Shown one piece after another: positions 25,606 to 32,399 of a stretch of DNA of 64,000 nucleotides. The notes under the pieces were generated by a model, which was not told where the DNA came from, made no database searches, and saw nothing but the letters and a program-made list of their open reading frames with translations. The DNA is from Psychrobacter sp. Ps6. Its GTDB lineage: Bacteria; Pseudomonadota; Gammaproteobacteria; Pseudomonadales; Moraxellaceae. Location: assembly GCF_022129235.1 (NCBI RefSeq), contig NZ_JADQAI010000007.1, positions 1 through 64,000 of the forward strand, given 5' to 3'. Positions within the stretch are counted from its first letter, which is position 1; each line of letters starts with the position of its first letter. The position numbers were made by a program, and so were the translations under genes.

Positions 25606-26541
25606 TTAGTTAACCTGCCAATATAACGGCTCGCCATAAACTTCAGCGAAATAATCGATCAAGGTTCTCACATTTAACGATACATGACGCGTATTCGGAT
25701 AGATAGCCGCGATATGCTGAGGCGTCGTTTTGATGGCGGCTTCATACTCAGGCAGTAGCTTCACCAATTTACCACTCTTAAGATGATCACCGATCAACCA
25801 ATCAGGAAATAACACAACCCCCATGCCTTTGAGCGCCGATACCAGTAACGACTCTGCATTGTTTGACATAAGCAATGCAGGGGCGGCAAATGGTGTCCAG
25901 TTTTCATCTTCTGTTTTGAAAAACCAGCGGTTTGGCCCTGATGAGCCTTTATAGACCAAGCATTTATGATGAGCTAGGTCAGATGGCGCTTGTAGTTTAT
26001 CGTGCTTATTTATATATGCTGGAGCGGCTGCAAGGTGATAGGTTTGCTCACCAAAAATACGCGCATGAAAGGACGAATCATTCAATGTGCCAATGCGAAA
26101 AATAACGTCGGTTGCATAATGATGGGGATCCACAAAATCATCAGTGAGCGTCAAATCTATCTGCAATTTGGGATAGCGATGACTCAGTGCTGGTATCCAA
26201 GGTGCGATGTGCCGTTGACCAAAAAACACAGGGGCGTTAATTCTTAATAAACCACCCGGTTCTAAAGTCCTATCTTGCAACTCCTTCTGCGCGGCATTCA
26301 TGCTTTCAGTAATAGCATGCGCGTAGCCCATAAACACGCGTCCCGCCTCGGTGGGAATGACGGCGCGTGTATTACGATAAAAAAGCTGCTGCCCTAGCGA
26401 ATCCTCTAGTTGCTTAATAATACGAGACACTTTTGAAGCAGATACTCCTTCTTTTCGTGCCACGACAGAGAAGCTCTGGGCATTAAAGACGCTGATAAAA
26501 AGCAGTAAGGTTTGTATGCTGATATTGTCGACGTTATTCAT
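25606..26541 (-). CDS. LysR-family transcriptional regulator
   Basis: This is a 311-residue LysR regulator. The winged helix-turn-helix occupies about residues 8-65 (FSVVARKEGVSASKVSRIIKQLE, cited in parts: VSASKVSRIIKQLE). The effector-binding domain begins near residue 95 (GLLRINAPVFFGQRHIAPWIP). The latter opening (LRINAP, then the end-segment Arg-Thr-Leu-Ile-Asp-Tyr-Phe) is that of the CrgA/DsdC-like subgroup that regulates a divergent gene. It is divergent from the two YdcZ genes with 97 bases between starts, so it likely controls them. The inducer is unknown. Confidence 0.9.
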   Translation of the reverse strand: MNNVDNISIQTLLLFISVFNAQSFSVVARKEGVSASKVSRIIKQLEDSLGQQLFYRNTRAVIPTEAGRVFMGYAHAITESMNAAQKELQDRTLEPGGLLRINAPVFFGQRHIAPWIPALSHRYPKLQIDLTLTDDFVDPHHYATDVIFRIGTLNDSSFHARIFGEQTYHLAAAPAYINKHDKLQAPSDLAHHKCLVYKGSSGPNRWFFKTEDENWTPFAAPALLMSNNAESLLVSALKGMGVVLFPDWLIGDHLKSGKLVKLLPEYEAAIKTTPQHIAAIYPNTRHVSLNVRTLIDYFAEVYGEPLYWQVN

Positions 26542-26638
26542 CTGTGCAACTTATGCAAAAGTCATTTCTACATTATAGCGTTTTTCGTGGGTATAGGCTG
26601 CGCTAAACTACGCGGCATTGCACATTGAGGATTGTTTT

Positions 26639-27073
26639 ATGCAGATTTTATTGATACTGGTGGTGGTTTTAGGCGGTATGGGGCTATCGGTCGAGGCTGG
26701 ACTGCTTGGTCCCCTAGGCAGTCAGGTGGGTGAGCTCTGGGCGACGCTCAGTATCTTTGGTGTCGGGGCCGCCTTGACGTTCTTTTTGATGCTATTTTTT
26801 AGTCCGCGAGAGAGTCCATCGTTTTTCTCACAGCCGCCACTGCTATTGATTGGTGGCATTTTGGGGCCTGTCTATGTGGTGGTACTAACAGTCGTCACAC
26901 CCTTCATTGGGATTGCACTGACGATGATTGGCATACTTGCAGGTCAGGTCTTTCAGAGCTTGATCATTGACCACTATGGGCTGTTTGAAACCGAGGAGCG
27001 CAAAATAGATATTAGACGAGTGATTGCGTTAGGTTTCATCATTGCAGCGCTTGTTTTTATGGCAAAGGGGTAG
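26639..27073 (+). CDS. YdcZ-family (DUF606) membrane protein, first of a pair
   Basis: This is a 144-residue membrane protein with about five helices (begins MQILLILVVVLGGMGLSVEAG; ends IALGFIIAALVFMAKG). It has the conserved start of DUF606/YdcZ, a half-size branch of the drug/metabolite transporter superfamily, with Gly-Pro-Leu-Gly-Ser in place of the usual Asn-Gly-x-Leu. The ATG at 26639 has GAGGA eight bases upstream. It is followed after five bases by a second YdcZ gene, so the two products probably pair to form one transporter. Divergent LysR neighbour suggests regulation. Confidence 0.82.
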   Translation: MQILLILVVVLGGMGLSVEAGLLGPLGSQVGELWATLSIFGVGAALTFFLMLFFSPRESPSFFSQPPLLLIGGILGPVYVVVLTVVTPFIGIALTMIGILAGQVFQSLIIDHYGLFETEERKIDIRRVIALGFIIAALVFMAKG

Positions 27074-27078
27074 ATCAC

Positions 27079-27543
27079 ATGATGCTTATTTTAATGATTG
27101 TACTAGCAGTGATTGGCGGGGCGACCTTGAGCGTACAAGCGGCATTGAATGGTCGACTAGGTAGTAATGTTGGCGTGTTCAAAAGTGCCTTTTTGACGTT
27201 TTCTGTTGGTGCCGTTGTGACCGCACTGCTGATTTTCTTCTTTGAGCCCAATCACGCGGTTACGTTGATGGATGTCCCTAAATGGCAGCTGCTTGGCGCA
27301 TTGTGCGGTGTGCCTTATATCGTCATCATGGTAGTTGCGGTACAGCGTATTGGCACAGCTGTGGCTACGGTGGCGGTGATCTTTGGTCAGCTGAGCATGA
27401 GCGTATTAATCGATAATTTTGGTTGGCTCGGCAATGAAGCGATAAGCCTGTCAGGCAGTCGCATCAGTGCGTTGGTTTGTCTAGCGGTTGCGCTGTATTT
27501 TATTTATTCGAGTAATAAGCCTAAGCCTAAAGTAATCAGTTAA
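27079..27543 (+). CDS. YdcZ-family (DUF606) membrane protein, second of a pair
   Basis: This is a 154-residue protein, all membrane helices, with the more typical family motif near its start (SVQAALNGRLGSNVG). It ends in a short basic tail (SSNKPKPKVIS). It is distinct in sequence from the first partner but of the same length and order of helices. Such back-to-back half genes are known in the DMT superfamily, where the products insert in opposite orientations and work as a heterodimer. Substrate unknown. The gene ends at a 9-bp hairpin (27592-27619) that lacks a strong T-run. Confidence 0.84.
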   Translation: MMLILMIVLAVIGGATLSVQAALNGRLGSNVGVFKSAFLTFSVGAVVTALLIFFFEPNHAVTLMDVPKWQLLGALCGVPYIVIMVVAVQRIGTAVATVAVIFGQLSMSVLIDNFGWLGNEAISLSGSRISALVCLAVALYFIYSSNKPKPKVIS

Positions 27544-27935
27544 ATCCGTTTTACACGCTCTTAGAAGTATAAAAATTTGAAAGCCCACAATCCCTGCTAC
27601 TCAATTCAGTGTAGTGGGGGTATGTATTTTAATAACTAGGATAATACTTTATCACTCGTCTACAAACTCTAGTTGTACGTCAATTATCTGTCCTATTCAA
27701 TGACCAAAGCCCTCATTTCTCACTACTTATTTCTTACTCCTTTATATACTCAAATCCTCTTTCGTCCAGTAGTCAGAACTACGATTGTTCAGCTACATTG
27801 CCTTTTAAATTGTCAGTATAATGAATTTTATTCATCTTATATTAAAATAGTATCGTTTTTATTCATGTGAGGATTTGGGTATGATTCACCCATACCGACA
27901 TTTTGTTCTATTTGATATTAAGGTAGTGAATCGCC
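27544..27935. other. Leader region upstream of mesX
   Basis: This 392-base AT-rich spacer holds a hairpin that may end the YdcZ transcript (CCCTGCTAC / GTAGTGGGG, 27592-27619), a MetR-type site (27822-27834) and a small hairpin just before mesX (GGTATG / CATACC, 27878-27896). A short open frame (27673-27870) has no ribosome site and an unconvincing composition. No SAM riboswitch core was recognised. Confidence 0.6.
27822..27834. promoter_or_regulatory. Candidate MetR-type operator
   Basis: TGAATTTTATTCA is an exact match to the consensus TGAA-N5-TTCA bound by MetR, the homocysteine-responsive LysR activator of methionine genes. A second half site (ATTCA) follows at about 27861-27865. It lies about 100 bases upstream of mesX, overlapped at its left end by a TATAAT-like box (27817-27822). 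The position fits an activator site, but a 13-base AT-rich match can occur by chance. Confidence 0.45.
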
Positions 27936-28928
27936 ATGACTAAAGAATTTAGCTGTTCCATTAAGAGCATTCGTTTTGATGAAAATTATCAGCCTGCTGA
28001 CAGCACGCGTCTGACGACGAACTTTGCCAATCTGGCACGCGGCGAGCAGCGTGAGGATAATCTACGCAAAACATTGACGATGATTAACAATCGCTTCAAC
28101 GCGCTGGCGCATTGGGACAATCCAAATGCCGACCGTTATTCTGTCGAAGTCGACATCATCTCTGTAGACATGGATATTGCGGGCAATGGCGATGCTTTCC
28201 CTGTTATCGAAACGCTAAAAACGACGATCATCGATCACAAAGAAAACAAGCGCATCGATGGCATGATTGGCAATAGCTTCTCATCTTATGTGCGTGATTA
28301 TGATTTTAGTGTTGTACTCCCAGAGCACCGCGACCAGCAGTCAGACTCGCTCACGCCCGCAAATTTTGGCGAGCTACATGGCAAACTGTTTCAATACTTA
28401 CTAAATTCAGAAGCTTATAAAGCCAATTTTGATAAAAAACCAGTCATCTGCTTGAGTGTCTCAACCAGCAAGACCTATTATCGTACTACCAATCAGCATC
28501 CGGTATTGGGCGTTGAGTACCAGCAAGACGAGTACTCCTTAACCGACGACTATTTTCACAAAATGGGCTTAACCGTGCGCTACTTTAAGCCTGAGGGCAG
28601 CGCCGCGCCATTAGCGTTCTATTTTGCAGGTGATTTGACCAGCGACTATACCGATCTTGAGCTCATCAGTGCAATCAGCACCATGGAGACCTTTCAAAAG
28701 ATCTACCGTCCTGAGATTTACAACGCCAACTCAAGCGCGGGTCAAGTGTATCAACCCAGCCTGAACTACCAAGACTATTCATTGACACAAGTGGTCTACG
28801 ATCGTGTCGAGCGCAGCCAAATGGCGGTCAAGCAAGGCAAATTTACCGAAACGCATTTTATCAAGCCTTACCAAGATATTCTTGAAACATGGGCGGCCAA
28901 TTACGCTGTAAACAAGAACGTCGCTTAA
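27936..28928 (+). CDS. mesX: DUF1852 protein MesX, partner of the MesD methionine synthase
   Basis: This 330-residue soluble protein belongs to DUF1852. Recognisable stretches are NLARGEQREDNLRKTLTMIN (about 32-51), the following NRFNALAHWDNP, and SVEVDIISVDMDI. No membrane segment or known cofactor motif is visible. Genetic work on Acinetobacter showed that MesD needs this protein and oxygen to make methionine; its chemistry is not established as far as I know. It starts at 27936 with TTAAGG nearby and is followed by mesD after 73 bases. Its neighbours (flavin reductase two genes downstream) suggest that it may use reduced flavin and O2. That last point is inference. Confidence 0.9.
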   Translation: MTKEFSCSIKSIRFDENYQPADSTRLTTNFANLARGEQREDNLRKTLTMINNRFNALAHWDNPNADRYSVEVDIISVDMDIAGNGDAFPVIETLKTTIIDHKENKRIDGMIGNSFSSYVRDYDFSVVLPEHRDQQSDSLTPANFGELHGKLFQYLLNSEAYKANFDKKPVICLSVSTSKTYYRTTNQHPVLGVEYQQDEYSLTDDYFHKMGLTVRYFKPEGSAAPLAFYFAGDLTSDYTDLELISAISTMETFQKIYRPEIYNANSSAGQVYQPSLNYQDYSLTQVVYDRVERSQMAVKQGKFTETHFIKPYQDILETWAANYAVNKNVA

Positions 28929-28957
28929 AAAATCCAAATATAAAAGCGCACGCTACA

Positions 28958-28989
28958 ACACCTAAAATAGAGAACACCTAAAATAGAGA
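28958..28989 (+). repeat. 16-bp perfect tandem duplication between mesX and mesD
   Basis: ACACCTAAAATAGAGA occurs twice in direct succession (28958-28973 and 28974-28989). The second copy ends 12 bases before the mesD start, so the duplicated AGAGA lies close to the ribosome-binding region of mesD. It is probably a recent slippage event. Confidence 0.95.
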
Positions 28990-29001
28990 AGACAATACGA
29001 C

Positions 29002-30030
29002 ATGACTTTATTATTACCAACATCGACCGCTGGCAGCTTACCAAAACCCTCTTGGCTGGCAGAACCTGAGAAAATTTGGTCGCCTTGGCAACTTGACGGT
29101 AAAGAATTGCACCAAGCAAAACAGGATGCGCTGCTGGTGTCATTGCAAGAGCAAGTGCGAGCAGGCGTCGATATCGTCAGTGACGGCGAGCAAACCCGTC
29201 AGCACTTTGTCACTACCTTTATTGAGCATTTAGACGGCGTGGATTTTAACCAGCGTGAAACCGTGCGCATCCGCAATCGCTATGATGCCAGCGTACCGAC
29301 AGTAGTTGGTGCCGTAAGCCGCCAAAAGCCTGTGTTCGTCGAAGACGCCAAGTTTTTACGTCAGCATACTGACAAGCCGATCAAGTGGGCATTGCCTGGG
29401 CCGATGACCATGATTGATACGCTGTATGACAATCATTATAAAAGCCGCGAAAAACTGGCGTGGGAATTTGCCACCATTCTTAACCAAGAAGCCAAAGAAT
29501 TGGAAGCAGCGGGTGTGGATATCATTCAGTTCGATGAACCTGCATTTAACGTGTTCTTTGATGATGTCAACGACTGGGGTATCGCGACCCTTGAGCGCGC
29601 GATCGAGGGCTTAAAGTGCGAAACGGCGGTACACATTTGCTACGGCTATGGTATCAAAGCCAATAACGATTGGAAAAAAACACTGGGTTCAGAATGGCGT
29701 CAGTACGAAAAAGCCTTTCCTAAACTGCAGCAGTCAAAAATCGATATTGTCTCGCTTGAGTGTCAGAACTCGCGTGTACCGATGGATTTGATTGAACTGA
29801 TTCGTGGTAAAAAAGTGATGGTCGGTGCGATTGATGTGGCGACCAATGATATCGAGACGCCTGAAGCAGTTGCTGATACGTTGCGTAAAGCATTGCAGTT
29901 TGTTGATGCTGATAAGCTCTATCCATCGACTAACTGTGGCATGGCACCGTTGTCGCGCCAAGTGGCAAAAGGTAAATTGCAAGCACTGAGCGCAGGCGCA
30001 GACATCGTTCGTCAAGAGCTAGTAGGCTAA
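29002..30030 (+). CDS. mesD: Core (folate-independent) methionine synthase MesD
   Basis: This 342-residue protein is the catalytic half of a cobalamin-independent methionine synthase. It lacks the N-terminal folate-binding barrel, so it is less than half the length of MetE (about 750). The zinc site that activates homocysteine is intact: His211 and Cys213 (VHICYG), Glu253 (SLEC), and Cys312 (STNCGM). The substrate motif DEPAF is at about 176-180. In the MesD family, methionine formation needs neither methyl-folate nor cobalamin but requires DUF1852 and oxygen, both of which fit here (mesX is upstream and the organism is aerobic by content). The methyl donor is not settled to my knowledge. The start ATG 29002 is preceded by AGAGAAG. 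Confidence 0.93.
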   Translation: MTLLLPTSTAGSLPKPSWLAEPEKIWSPWQLDGKELHQAKQDALLVSLQEQVRAGVDIVSDGEQTRQHFVTTFIEHLDGVDFNQRETVRIRNRYDASVPTVVGAVSRQKPVFVEDAKFLRQHTDKPIKWALPGPMTMIDTLYDNHYKSREKLAWEFATILNQEAKELEAAGVDIIQFDEPAFNVFFDDVNDWGIATLERAIEGLKCETAVHICYGYGIKANNDWKKTLGSEWRQYEKAFPKLQQSKIDIVSLECQNSRVPMDLIELIRGKKVMVGAIDVATNDIETPEAVADTLRKALQFVDADKLYPSTNCGMAPLSRQVAKGKLQALSAGADIVRQELVG

Positions 30031-30068
30031 AGAACGGTCAGTAATAATCCAAATTTGGGGTGTGAGTA

Positions 30069-30581
30069 ATGAGTGAAGCAAGCAGTTTTAGAGACGCTAT
30101 GTCACTGCTGACGACAGCAGTCAATGTGGTCACGACCGCAGGCGATGCGGGCACACACGGGTTCACTGCCTCAGCGGTGTGCAGTGTCAGCGACAATCCG
30201 CCGACCTTGCTGGTCTGTATGAATCAATCATCGCGCTCGCACATGCCCTTTGTGGATAATAAAGTATTAAGCGTCAACGTACTTGGCGCGCAGCATGAGC
30301 ACTTATCCAACATTTTTGCCTCAAAGCTCGAGTCAGATGAGCGCTTTACCCATGGCGCGTGGCACACCTTAGCAACAGGTGCGCCTGTGCTAGACGATGC
30401 ACTCGTTAGCTTTGATTGTGAGATTGAGCAAGTGCAAGCCGTGGGTACGCACAGCGTCTTTATGTGCCGCGTCGTTGCCATCAAGCATTCTGAGCGAGCG
30501 GGTGAGCCAGACGAGAGTTTGGTCTATTTCAATCGTCGCTATCACTCGGTTGGTCAAGTCTGTCAAATTGACATGGCTTAG
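30069..30581 (+). CDS. Flavin reductase (HpaC/RutF-like)
   Basis: This is a 170-residue FMN-binding split-barrel protein. The family features are FRDAMSLLTTAVNVVTT at the start, HGFTASAVCSVSDNPPTLLVC (cited in parts: HGFTASAV, PPTLLVCMN) at about 38-60, SVNVLGAQHEHL at about 80-91, and a late Tyr-Phe-x-Arg-x-Tyr-His (VYFNRRYHSVG). Such proteins reduce FMN or FAD with NAD(P)H and hand it to a partner monooxygenase. No monooxygenase gene of a known type lies nearby, so the DUF1852 protein MesX is the obvious candidate client. The start at 30069 has GGGGTGTGAGT upstream. It lies 38 bases after mesD and 38 bases before the TauE gene, consistent with one operon. Confidence 0.88.
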   Translation: MSEASSFRDAMSLLTTAVNVVTTAGDAGTHGFTASAVCSVSDNPPTLLVCMNQSSRSHMPFVDNKVLSVNVLGAQHEHLSNIFASKLESDERFTHGAWHTLATGAPVLDDALVSFDCEIEQVQAVGTHSVFMCRVVAIKHSERAGEPDESLVYFNRRYHSVGQVCQIDMA

Positions 30582-30619
30582 CCATATTCTTCCATCATCC
30601 AACCAAAAGTAACGATTCT

Positions 30620-31435
30620 GTGGAACTTATCATTTTTTTAATCATTGGAGCGCTGGCAGGGTTTGCAGCAGGCCTGTTTGGGGTGGGCGGTGGCACCATC
30701 ATCGTACCGCTATTATTCATAGTCTTTACCCAGATGGACTACAGTCCTGATATAGTCATGCATCTGGCACTCGGCACCTCGCTTGCCACCATCATCGTCA
30801 CCTCTATCAGCTCGCTCATGGCGCATAATAAAAAAGGCGCGGTCATGTGGCCTGTTTTTAAAAATCTCACACCAGGCATGGCGATTGGTTGTTTTTTTGG
30901 GGCAGGAATGGCAGGCGCGATCTCGGGCGGTCATCTACAAATTATCGTGGGTACGTTTTTGCTATGGGTCGCCTTTAACATGTTTACGGGCGGTAAAAAG
31001 CGGCTAGGTTCTGATGTCAGTACTGGCGATGCTGTATTACCATCAGCACCTAAGCAGCTAGCAGCAGGGGCGGGCATTGGTGTGGCATCTGCTATTTTTG
31101 GTATCGGCGGTGGTAGTTTAACCGTGCCATATCTCACTCGCTATAATGTGGTTATGCAAAAAGCAGTGGGCACGTCCGCTGCCTGCGGTCTGCCGATTGC
31201 CATTGCTGGCGCGCTGGGTTTTATGGTGTTTGGGATGAAAGAGCACGTCAATATTCCCAACGCGATTGGCTTCGTGCATATTTATGCTTTTGTGGGCATC
31301 GGTGCCATGAGCTTTTTTACCGCCAAGATAGGCGCAAAAGTCGCGCACCAACTCTCGCCGATTCTATTGAAAAAATGCTTTGCGGTGCTACTCATGATTG
31401 TGAGCTGCTTCTTTCTATATAAAGGGTTAGTTTAA
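30620..31435 (+). CDS. TauE/SafE-family permease
   Basis: This is a 271-residue membrane protein with about eight helices in two repeats. Each repeat begins with the family motif: Gly-x-Phe-Gly-Val-Gly-Gly-Gly-x-x-x-Val-Pro (LFGVGGGTIIVPL, about 19-31) and again IFGIGGGSLTVPY (about 155-167). TauE/SafE proteins export sulfite or carry organosulfur anions. The start is GTG with AAAGTAACG upstream. It closes the mesX-mesD-flavin reductase run on the same strand with 38-base spacing. A sulfur-anion carrier next to a methionine synthase may point to a sulfur-containing methyl donor or waste product, but that is speculation. Confidence 0.88.
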   Translation: MELIIFLIIGALAGFAAGLFGVGGGTIIVPLLFIVFTQMDYSPDIVMHLALGTSLATIIVTSISSLMAHNKKGAVMWPVFKNLTPGMAIGCFFGAGMAGAISGGHLQIIVGTFLLWVAFNMFTGGKKRLGSDVSTGDAVLPSAPKQLAAGAGIGVASAIFGIGGGSLTVPYLTRYNVVMQKAVGTSAACGLPIAIAGALGFMVFGMKEHVNIPNAIGFVHIYAFVGIGAMSFFTAKIGAKVAHQLSPILLKKCFAVLLMIVSCFFLYKGLV

Positions 31436-31478: not shown

Positions 31479-32399
31479 TCAGTAACCTGCTTCATTTAGT
31501 ATTCGGTACTTATCGCACCCATTTTGATAACCGTTATCACAAGCTTTACCAAACCACTCTTTTGCTTGAAACTTATCTTGACGAACACCTTTGCCTTCTT
31601 GGTAAAGTAGACCAAGATGATATTGGGAGATGGCATGACCTTGCTCAGCAGCTCTTCGGTACCAACTGATAGCTGTAGGGAGATCTTGACGAACATGTTT
31701 GCCCTCTTGGTAAAGCAAACCAAGACGATACTGGGAAATGGCATGACTCTGTTCAGCTGCCTTTTGATACCAACTGATAGCTGCAAATAAATCTTGACGA
31801 ACACCTTTGCCTTCTTGATAAAGTAAGCCAAGATGATATTGTGCAGTGACATAATTTTCCTCAGCTGCTTTTTGATACCAACTAACAGCCGTCGTCAAAT
31901 CTTGACTAACACCTTTGCCATTTTCATAAAGTAAACCTAGATGATATTGGGCAGTGACATAACCTTGCTCAGCGGCCTTTTGATACCAACTTACAGCTGC
32001 AGATAAATCTTGATGAACGCCTTTGCCCTCTTGATAAAGCAAACCAAGGTGATACTGGGAAATGGCATGACCCTGTTCAGCTGCCCTTTTATACCAACTT
32101 ATAGCCGTCGCTAGATCTTGATGAACCCCATTACCTGCTTGGTAAAATGAACCAAGATGATACTGGGAAATGGCATGACCCTGCTCAGCTGCCTTTTGAT
32201 ACCAATTTATAGCCGTCGCCAAATCCTGACGAACACCTTTGCCCTCTCTATAAAATGTACCAAGTTGATACTGGGATGTGACATGTCCTTGCTCAGCTGC
32301 TTTTTGATGCGCTTTGGCAGCTACAGTTAAGCTTTCACCAAGATAAGACCTTTTTCTTCTATTGTAAAAGAAGGGCTTCTTTAAATATTTAAAAACCAT
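31479..32399 (-). CDS. Sel1-repeat protein
   Basis: This is a 306-residue protein made almost wholly of seven Sel1-like repeats of 36 residues (each about AISWYQKAAEQGHAISQYHLG plus LLYQEGKGVRQDL, cited as parts) and a closing half repeat with the family's usual Cys pair (KACDNGYQNGCDKY). Sel1 repeats are helical pairs that form a solenoid scaffold for protein contacts. Most relatives in this group are exported, yet the N-terminus here (MVFKYLKKPFFYNRRKRSYL) is basic and is no signal peptide, so either the signal was lost or the true N-terminus differs. The ribosome site is weak. The stop codon lies in a 7-bp hairpin (31473-31491). Confidence 0.85.
   Translation of the reverse strand: MVFKYLKKPFFYNRRKRSYLGESLTVAAKAHQKAAEQGHVTSQYQLGTFYREGKGVRQDLATAINWYQKAAEQGHAISQYHLGSFYQAGNGVHQDLATAISWYKRAAEQGHAISQYHLGLLYQEGKGVHQDLSAAVSWYQKAAEQGYVTAQYHLGLLYENGKGVSQDLTTAVSWYQKAAEENYVTAQYHLGLLYQEGKGVRQDLFAAISWYQKAAEQSHAISQYRLGLLYQEGKHVRQDLPTAISWYRRAAEQGHAISQYHLGLLYQEGKGVRQDKFQAKEWFGKACDNGYQNGCDKYRILNEAGY
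31560..32310 (-). repeat. 108-bp coding tandem repeats of the Sel1 gene
   Basis: About seven copies of a 108-bp unit encode the 36-residue Sel1 motif. Copies differ by scattered substitutions (for example TACTGGGAAATGGCATGA recurs with few changes on the plus strand), which suggests expansion by recombination rather than old divergence. Edges are approximate. Confidence 0.85.

Follow-up and report, generated by a model that had tools for sequence, protein, structure and literature searches.

A 64,000-nucleotide stretch of the Psychrobacter sp. Ps6 genome (contig NZ_JADQAI010000007.1, positions 1 to 64,000; hereafter the window) carries four genes in a row on the plus strand (27936-31435) that probably specify a MetR-activated, oxygen-dependent and B12-free methionine synthase, with MesX and MesD as its two essential parts and with a flavin reductase and an anion-exporting permease that would be helpful, neither being required. 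Open reading frames and Pfam matches define mesX (27936-28928, +), encoding a putative oxygenase of 330 amino acids (PF08908/DUF1852), and mesD (29002-30030, +), encoding a core methionine synthase of 342 amino acids without a folate-binding domain, whose zinc ligands H211, C213, E253 and C312 were located by alignment. The third gene (30069-30581, +) encodes a PF01613 flavin reductase of 170 amino acids (135.5 bits, cut-off 27), assigned also from NCBIfam and a tree as the likely supplier of reduced flavin, and the fourth (30620-31435, +, GTG start) a TauE/SafE-family permease of 271 amino acids (PF01925, 169 bits, cut-off 32.6), likewise placed by a tree. The open reading frames lie where an original prediction, made from the sequence alone, had put them, and the gaps between them were recomputed as the predicted 73, 38 and 38 bases. 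A scan of the window found no terminator-like plus-strand site between the four genes, and such sites were not commoner across the region than by chance (5 vs 4.7 in shuffles). The reductase had been called RutF/HpaC-like, which is fair as a likeness; it is neither by rule, because its scores against the NCBIfam equivalogs, 212 bits for RutF and 160 bits for HpaC, fall under the respective cut-offs of 254.75 and 205.95 bits.

The mesXD core, its oxygen link and the hint of a reductase are not new, since they are found in Price et al. (2021; PMC7857596) and Leyn et al. (2014; PMC4239095). As Price et al. describe in their main text, MesD functions only with MesX and in air, and not via methyl-folate or cobalamin; the requirement for MesX and oxygen was demonstrated with Sphingomonas koreensis genes in E. 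coli, and mesX plus mesD alone rescued the E. coli ΔmetE and ΔmetF mutants in air in M9 glucose (PMC7857596). Published work thus bears out the predicted oxygen-linked, folate- and B12-independent synthesis of methionine by MesX and MesD. The same authors pointed out that a gene for a putative flavin reductase often lies close by and predicted that the methyl group comes from central metabolism (PMC7857596). The Psychrobacter cluster shares with their system both protein families, the adjacency of the two genes (with 89% identity for MesD and 73% for MesX) and the nearby reductase, and differs from it by the TauE gene after the reductase. Neither 'TauE' nor 'permease' occurs in the main text of that paper (PMC7857596), and a literature search with term look-ups in this paper and in Leyn et al., supplements and preprints being outside its scope, did not find a TauE-mesXD link in print. 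Within the literature searched, the link to TauE, the recruitment of each accessory more than once and the control of mesX by MetR in Moraxellaceae appear to be new.

MesD matches the catalytic domain PF01717 at 134 bits (residues 5-329) and the folate-side PF08267 at only 19.4 bits, under the cut-off of 27. It shares the catalytic domain with the catalytic half of MetE (1xdj and relatives), and its four zinc ligands align with those of MetE, the E. coli ligands being listed in Price et al. (PMC7857596). Unlike MetE, it lacks the folate-binding half, so that the predicted core methionine synthase with an intact zinc site and no folate domain was recovered; a solved relative is 3rpd. Price et al. 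recognise MesD by at least 560 bits to the ADP1 protein and adjacency to DUF1852 (PMC7857596). The window's MesD scored 695 bits (89% identity) with the A. baylyi type-strain protein as the query instead of that of ADP1, and mesX is 73 bases away; MesX is 73% identical to its A. baylyi type-strain counterpart. In the proposed mechanism the MesD zinc would hold homocysteine, while MesX, consuming oxygen, would release a methyl group from a metabolite of ordinary metabolism and pass it to MesD.

MesX matches PF08908, currently named 'MesX, putative oxygenase' in Pfam, at 585 bits (cut-off 25) over residues 1-321, and matched no other Pfam family. It is 89% identical to MesX of P. piscatorii, and the mesX region of another genome of the genus (G074) and the P. 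pasteurii locus have an identical gene order. In an alignment of 124 sequences down to 61% identity (the window and relatives, many from Psychrobacter and Acinetobacter), 88 of the 330 residues are invariant. The predicted model of MesX has a mean predicted local distance difference test score (pLDDT) of 83 (46 sequences); a Foldseek search of the PDB gave no match at E≤0.001 and no flavoprotein among the matches listed, and the best VIA Z, 5.0 to an acetyltransferase, is within noise and speaks neither for a new fold nor against flavin. It is the gene neighbours that suggest flavin use. Two-component flavin monooxygenases such as HpaBC, RutAF and styrene monooxygenase work with a PF01613 reductase, and the window resembles them in that a PF01613 reductase adjoins a putative oxygenase; unlike them, MesX matches only its own family and no PDB sequence. 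MesX might instead be a metal-dependent oxygenase, with the reductase keeping the metal reduced or standing by, a reading that we consider unlikely: MesX carries invariant H148, H188 and E194 as well as many invariant acidic residues and has no sequence link to a known flavoprotein, but such a metal site is a guess from conservation, and flavin reductases of three clades stand beside mesD.

The neighbourhood of mesX was surveyed in two sets. The less biased was a phylum sample of 398 evenly drawn Pseudomonadota genomes, of which 44 had MesX; their neighbourhoods comprise 43 stretches and the window, some ending at contig ends. The other comprised 81 named loci, namely the best 80 of at least 578 confirmed and the window, and leans to Psychrobacter and Acinetobacter. 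The profiles used to detect nearby TauE and reductase genes derive from the proteins of the window itself, so that more distant forms may have escaped them; in the 44 genomes the complete list of PF01613 matches was checked as well, and PF01925 was checked among the matches listed. The background assumed that genes are placed at random, given their copy number and the size of the genome. It makes no correction for shared descent, for which counting by genus is only a partial remedy, because one TauE arrangement and clade is common to some of the genera.

In the phylum sample mesD adjoined mesX in 44 of 44 genomes. Within 3 kb of mesX, a TauE gene was found in 11 of the 44 (vs 0.37 expected; 6 of 27 genera vs 0.22) and a PF01613 reductase in three, two of them Psychrobacter and the third G316 (vs 0.16 expected), all three reductases lying after mesD on the same strand. 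A twelfth TauE lies about 5 kb from mesX in G308, and blind clustering of the mesX neighbours ranked TauE next after mesD, mesX and LysR-type genes. Both links, predicted to be non-random, exceed the copy-number background. Both accessories stood near mesX in two of the 44 genomes, both Psychrobacter. Among the named loci, the 32 from Psychrobacter had mesD in 31, the reductase in 30 and TauE in 28, with both reductase misses and three of the four TauE misses at contig ends; the 27 from Acinetobacter had mesD in 26, the reductase in 26 and TauE in seven; and the remaining 22 had mesD in 22, the reductase in five and TauE in one. Across the 81 loci and the phylum sample, all four genes were found together only in Psychrobacter and in part of the Acinetobacter.

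The origins of these neighbours were examined in two trees. The TauE tree held 51 proteins (22 of 44 adjacent to mesXD and 29 of 53 other rows, picked for spread and score). The other rows came from 60 stretches, seven of which yielded none, and four adjacent fragments that scored below 250 bits were excluded. The bootstrap of this tree had not settled and several branches are long; with that reservation, mesXD-linked TauE proteins occupy at least three places. One clade is that of the Moraxellaceae (same strand, after the reductase), a second belongs to the genus g27, with TauE on the opposite strand and pointing away from mesX, and a third comprises Thalassotalea, G007, G342 and G368 (opposite strand, convergent with mesD), giving three orientations overall; the TauE of G336 was placed elsewhere, outside the three clades. 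The starred branches require at least three changes for the opposite-strand group, again with the bootstrap not settled, and counted by event there were three to four recruitments. In the reductase tree (41 proteins, 21 adjacent and 20 other rows picked for spread) the linked reductases form three separate clades, namely Moraxellaceae with Wohlfahrtiimonas, Rhizobiaceae/Brucellaceae, and G316 with a Pseudomonas. Sequence comparison thus suggests that genes for a flavin reductase and for a sulfur-type exporter each came to stand beside mesXD several times independently. Finding different subfamilies repeatedly at one and the same place argues for a functional link more strongly than inheritance of a conserved neighbour would, and it also shows the two accessories to be independent of each other.

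That the two neighbours are there by chance or hitch-hiking is, in our judgement, improbable. Both families are common (TauE in 44 of 44 genomes, PF01613 in 42 of 44), and 32 of the 44 have neither within 3 kb of mesX, but the counts exceed the background, within its assumption of random placement and with related genomes not independent, and the recruits come from separate subfamilies. The linkage of a reductase and an anion permease, each in several unrelated forms, would narrow the chemistry of the pathway: reduced flavin in, anion out.

The links look real but accessory, not those of an obligate four-part machine, because mesX and mesD alone suffice for rescue of E. coli in M9 glucose. The original prediction had joined the four genes into one system in which MesX oxidises a methylated, perhaps organosulfur, compound and TauE moves a sulfur anion. 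The same-strand order with 38-base gaps, retained in 28 of the 32 Psychrobacter loci, and the Pfam name of the permease family, 'sulfite exporter TauE/SafE', speak for such a unit; against it stand the E. coli rescue, the two of 44 genomes with both accessories and A. baylyi, in which mesXD is genetically required and no TauE was seen within 8 kb after mesX. M9 medium supplies its sulfur as sulfate. Rescue in M9 glucose argues against an external organosulfur methyl donor, which is unlikely also in view of A. baumannii, where with B12 mesX drops while sfnG and msuE go up (PMC12892962). We thus regard it as very improbable that the four genes form an obligate system with a methylated organosulfur compound as its feed; of the prediction as a whole, the oxygen-linked, folate-free core and the non-random neighbours were supported, and the four-part unit and the organosulfur donor were not. 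In the account preferred here, the clustered flavin reductase would raise the supply of reduced flavin for MesX, for which other cellular reductases could substitute, and TauE would serve as an accessory exporter, its cargo most likely being an anion that is formed or builds up while the pathway runs.

As to control, a conserved block before mesX, common to Psychrobacter and Acinetobacter, holds the MetR-type operator ATGAATTTTATTCAT (27821-27835), 101 bases before the mesX start, which follows the MetR consensus ATGAA-N5-TTCAT given by Leyn et al. (PMC4239095). PF08908-metE2 is among the well-conserved MetR targets in the text of that study (PMC4239095). Alignment places a second conserved half-site, TTTTTATTCATG (27856-27867, +), where it may act as the LysR activation site, and shows a conserved -10-like hexamer, TATGAT (27880-27885, +), which may belong to the mesX promoter; a promoter scan did not pick up this hexamer and flagged a weak hairpin over it (27878-27896). 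The strict pattern ATGAAYNNNRTTCAT had a single match in the 3.48 Mb genome. This uniqueness proves nothing alone, because a control pattern also matched once, with about one match expected by chance; the place and conservation of the site are what count. In the 250 bases before mesX, exact TGAA-N5-TTCA occurred in 26 of 31 Psychrobacter loci (vs 0.24 expected from shuffles), and a 32nd locus outside this count, L005, carries it too. It occurred also in 12 of 27 Acinetobacter loci (vs 0.52), six of 22 other named loci (vs 0.23) and eight of 42 phylum-sample loci (vs 0.36), several mesX starts in these three sets having been wrongly placed by the script.

A MetR orthologue is encoded in the window genome (45% identical to a MetR beside metE) and in G074 (46%), and all 17 further genomes examined (11 Acinetobacter, five Psychrobacter and Wohlfahrtiimonas) have one, well apart from the paralogues; that of Wohlfahrtiimonas is 38% identical to the MetR of the window genome. 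The orthologue was thus present in 18 of 18 Psychrobacter and Acinetobacter genomes. In a quick tree, drawn without bootstrap and with long branches among the paralogues, these proteins group with the MetR neighbouring metE or mesX. A metR gene lies near mesXD at 15 of 125 loci above 150 bits, seven of them in the 44-genome sample. mesX therefore has what marks members of the MetR regulon, an ATGAA-N5-TTCAT box upstream and a MetR orthologue in the genome, in common with the regulon of Leyn et al. (PMC4239095), and differs from it in that the Moraxellaceae are there without MetR. B12 brings down the expression of the A. baumannii DUF1852 gene by 8.3 log2 and that of a flavin reductase two locus tags on by 2.5 log2 (PMC12892962). 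The box together with the orthologue offers a simple explanation for the shut-off of mesX by B12 in Acinetobacter, besides correcting the view of a MetR-less family. When B12 is short, MetH would stall and homocysteine would rise, and MetR, bound at 27821-27835 and presumably sensing it, would activate mesXD; when B12 is present, this activation would end.

Several observations weigh against the proposed account. A PF01613 reductase was near mesX in only three of 44 genomes, G228 and G342 have no PF01613 match in the genome and G348 has one under the cut-off; the PF01613 type of reductase is therefore not required. TauE is on the opposite strand in nine of the 11 phylum-sample cases and missing from the cluster in 20 of the 27 Acinetobacter loci. 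When MesX was compared with the PDB by sequence and by profile, no match was better than E 1.3, and without a match to a known structure its flavin use has to be argued from the neighbours. The exact MetR box is missing in 15 of 27 Acinetobacter and five of 31 Psychrobacter loci, several with a near variant, and in Acinetobacter L039, L050 and L055 it is at a position differing from that of the remaining loci. Leyn et al. reported MetR to be absent from Moraxellaceae, based on four genomes (PMC4239095).

The MetR setting bears on what TauE does. It might be a sulfur-overflow valve under methionine control, exporting sulfite or another sulfur anion at high homocysteine and taking no part in MesX chemistry, which is possible though not what we favour. 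At L117, mesX and a separate TauE gene both have perfect ATGAA-N5-TTCAT boxes, and at L128, adjoining mesXD, TauE and a MetR gene lie side by side in divergent orientation, so that TauE can, as these two loci indicate, share the MetR setting; TauE proteins of different subfamilies also serve. Against a valve, 10 of the 11 TauE loci tested are without a MetR box, L128 included, and the substrate of TauE is not readable from sequence. A bolder and rather doubtful extension of the preferred account is that MesX yields one anionic co-product per methyl group released, and that the recruited TauE permeases export exactly that co-product. If this were true, the cargo of the mesXD-linked TauE would reveal the methyl donor of folate-independent methionine synthesis.

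Other routes of control and methyl supply were considered. The LysR gene at 25606-26541 was dropped as the regulator because it falls outside the MetR clade. A cluster of LysR-type neighbours (one member checked as LysR) was present in 18 of 44 genomes. LysR-type genes are very common, so these neighbours were not taken as enrichment and the MetR clade alone was followed. A cobalamin riboswitch (RF00174) was rejected as the cause of B12 control here, none being found in the window at the gathering score, nor in 13 further loci. In another scan, one of 20 loci has such a riboswitch, with 109.7 bits: L085 (2628-2819, -), where it immediately precedes mesX. The genome concerned, G371, belongs to another class and has no match to the MetH activation, MetE N-terminal or methylene-tetrahydrofolate reductase (MTHFR) models.

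The window genome has metH and a metF homologue, and a domain search found no MetE N-terminal domain in it. Four genomes (G126, G142, G342 and G368) combine a MetH activation domain and mesXD with no match to the MTHFR family PF02219. Distant MTHFR-like PF02219 paralogues occur near mesX in five of 44 genomes, from two genera. They lie upstream of and divergent from mesX at L139 (7616-9094, -), L134, L136 and L137 (G354, G302, G393 and G094) and also in G046, whose copy has an internal stop; one also has PF12225, and that of G094 comes after a gene for a MetR-type regulator, which is divergent from mesXD. Such proteins were rejected as the methyl source, since rescue extends to ΔmetF E. coli and no such neighbour is present in 39 of 44 genomes.

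Second copies from the core were also seen. In Acinetobacter sp. S54 an additional mesX (L059, 7995-8972), lacking a mesD, stands beside a DUF1826 gene and a luciferase-like monooxygenase, and a second mesX-mesD pair (L155, G082) is present as fragments about 0.4 Mb from the intact pair. A record labelled Bacillus subtilis SK6B4 (L062) carries a mesX-mesD-reductase cluster near-identical to that of Pseudochrobactrum (reductase end branches summing to about 0.025) and is probably contaminated or mislabelled. Next to the cluster in the window, two tandem YdcZ-type drug/metabolite transporters (26618-27543, +) are divergent from the LysR gene, and a Sel1-repeat protein with seven repeats matched is encoded just downstream (31479-32399, -).

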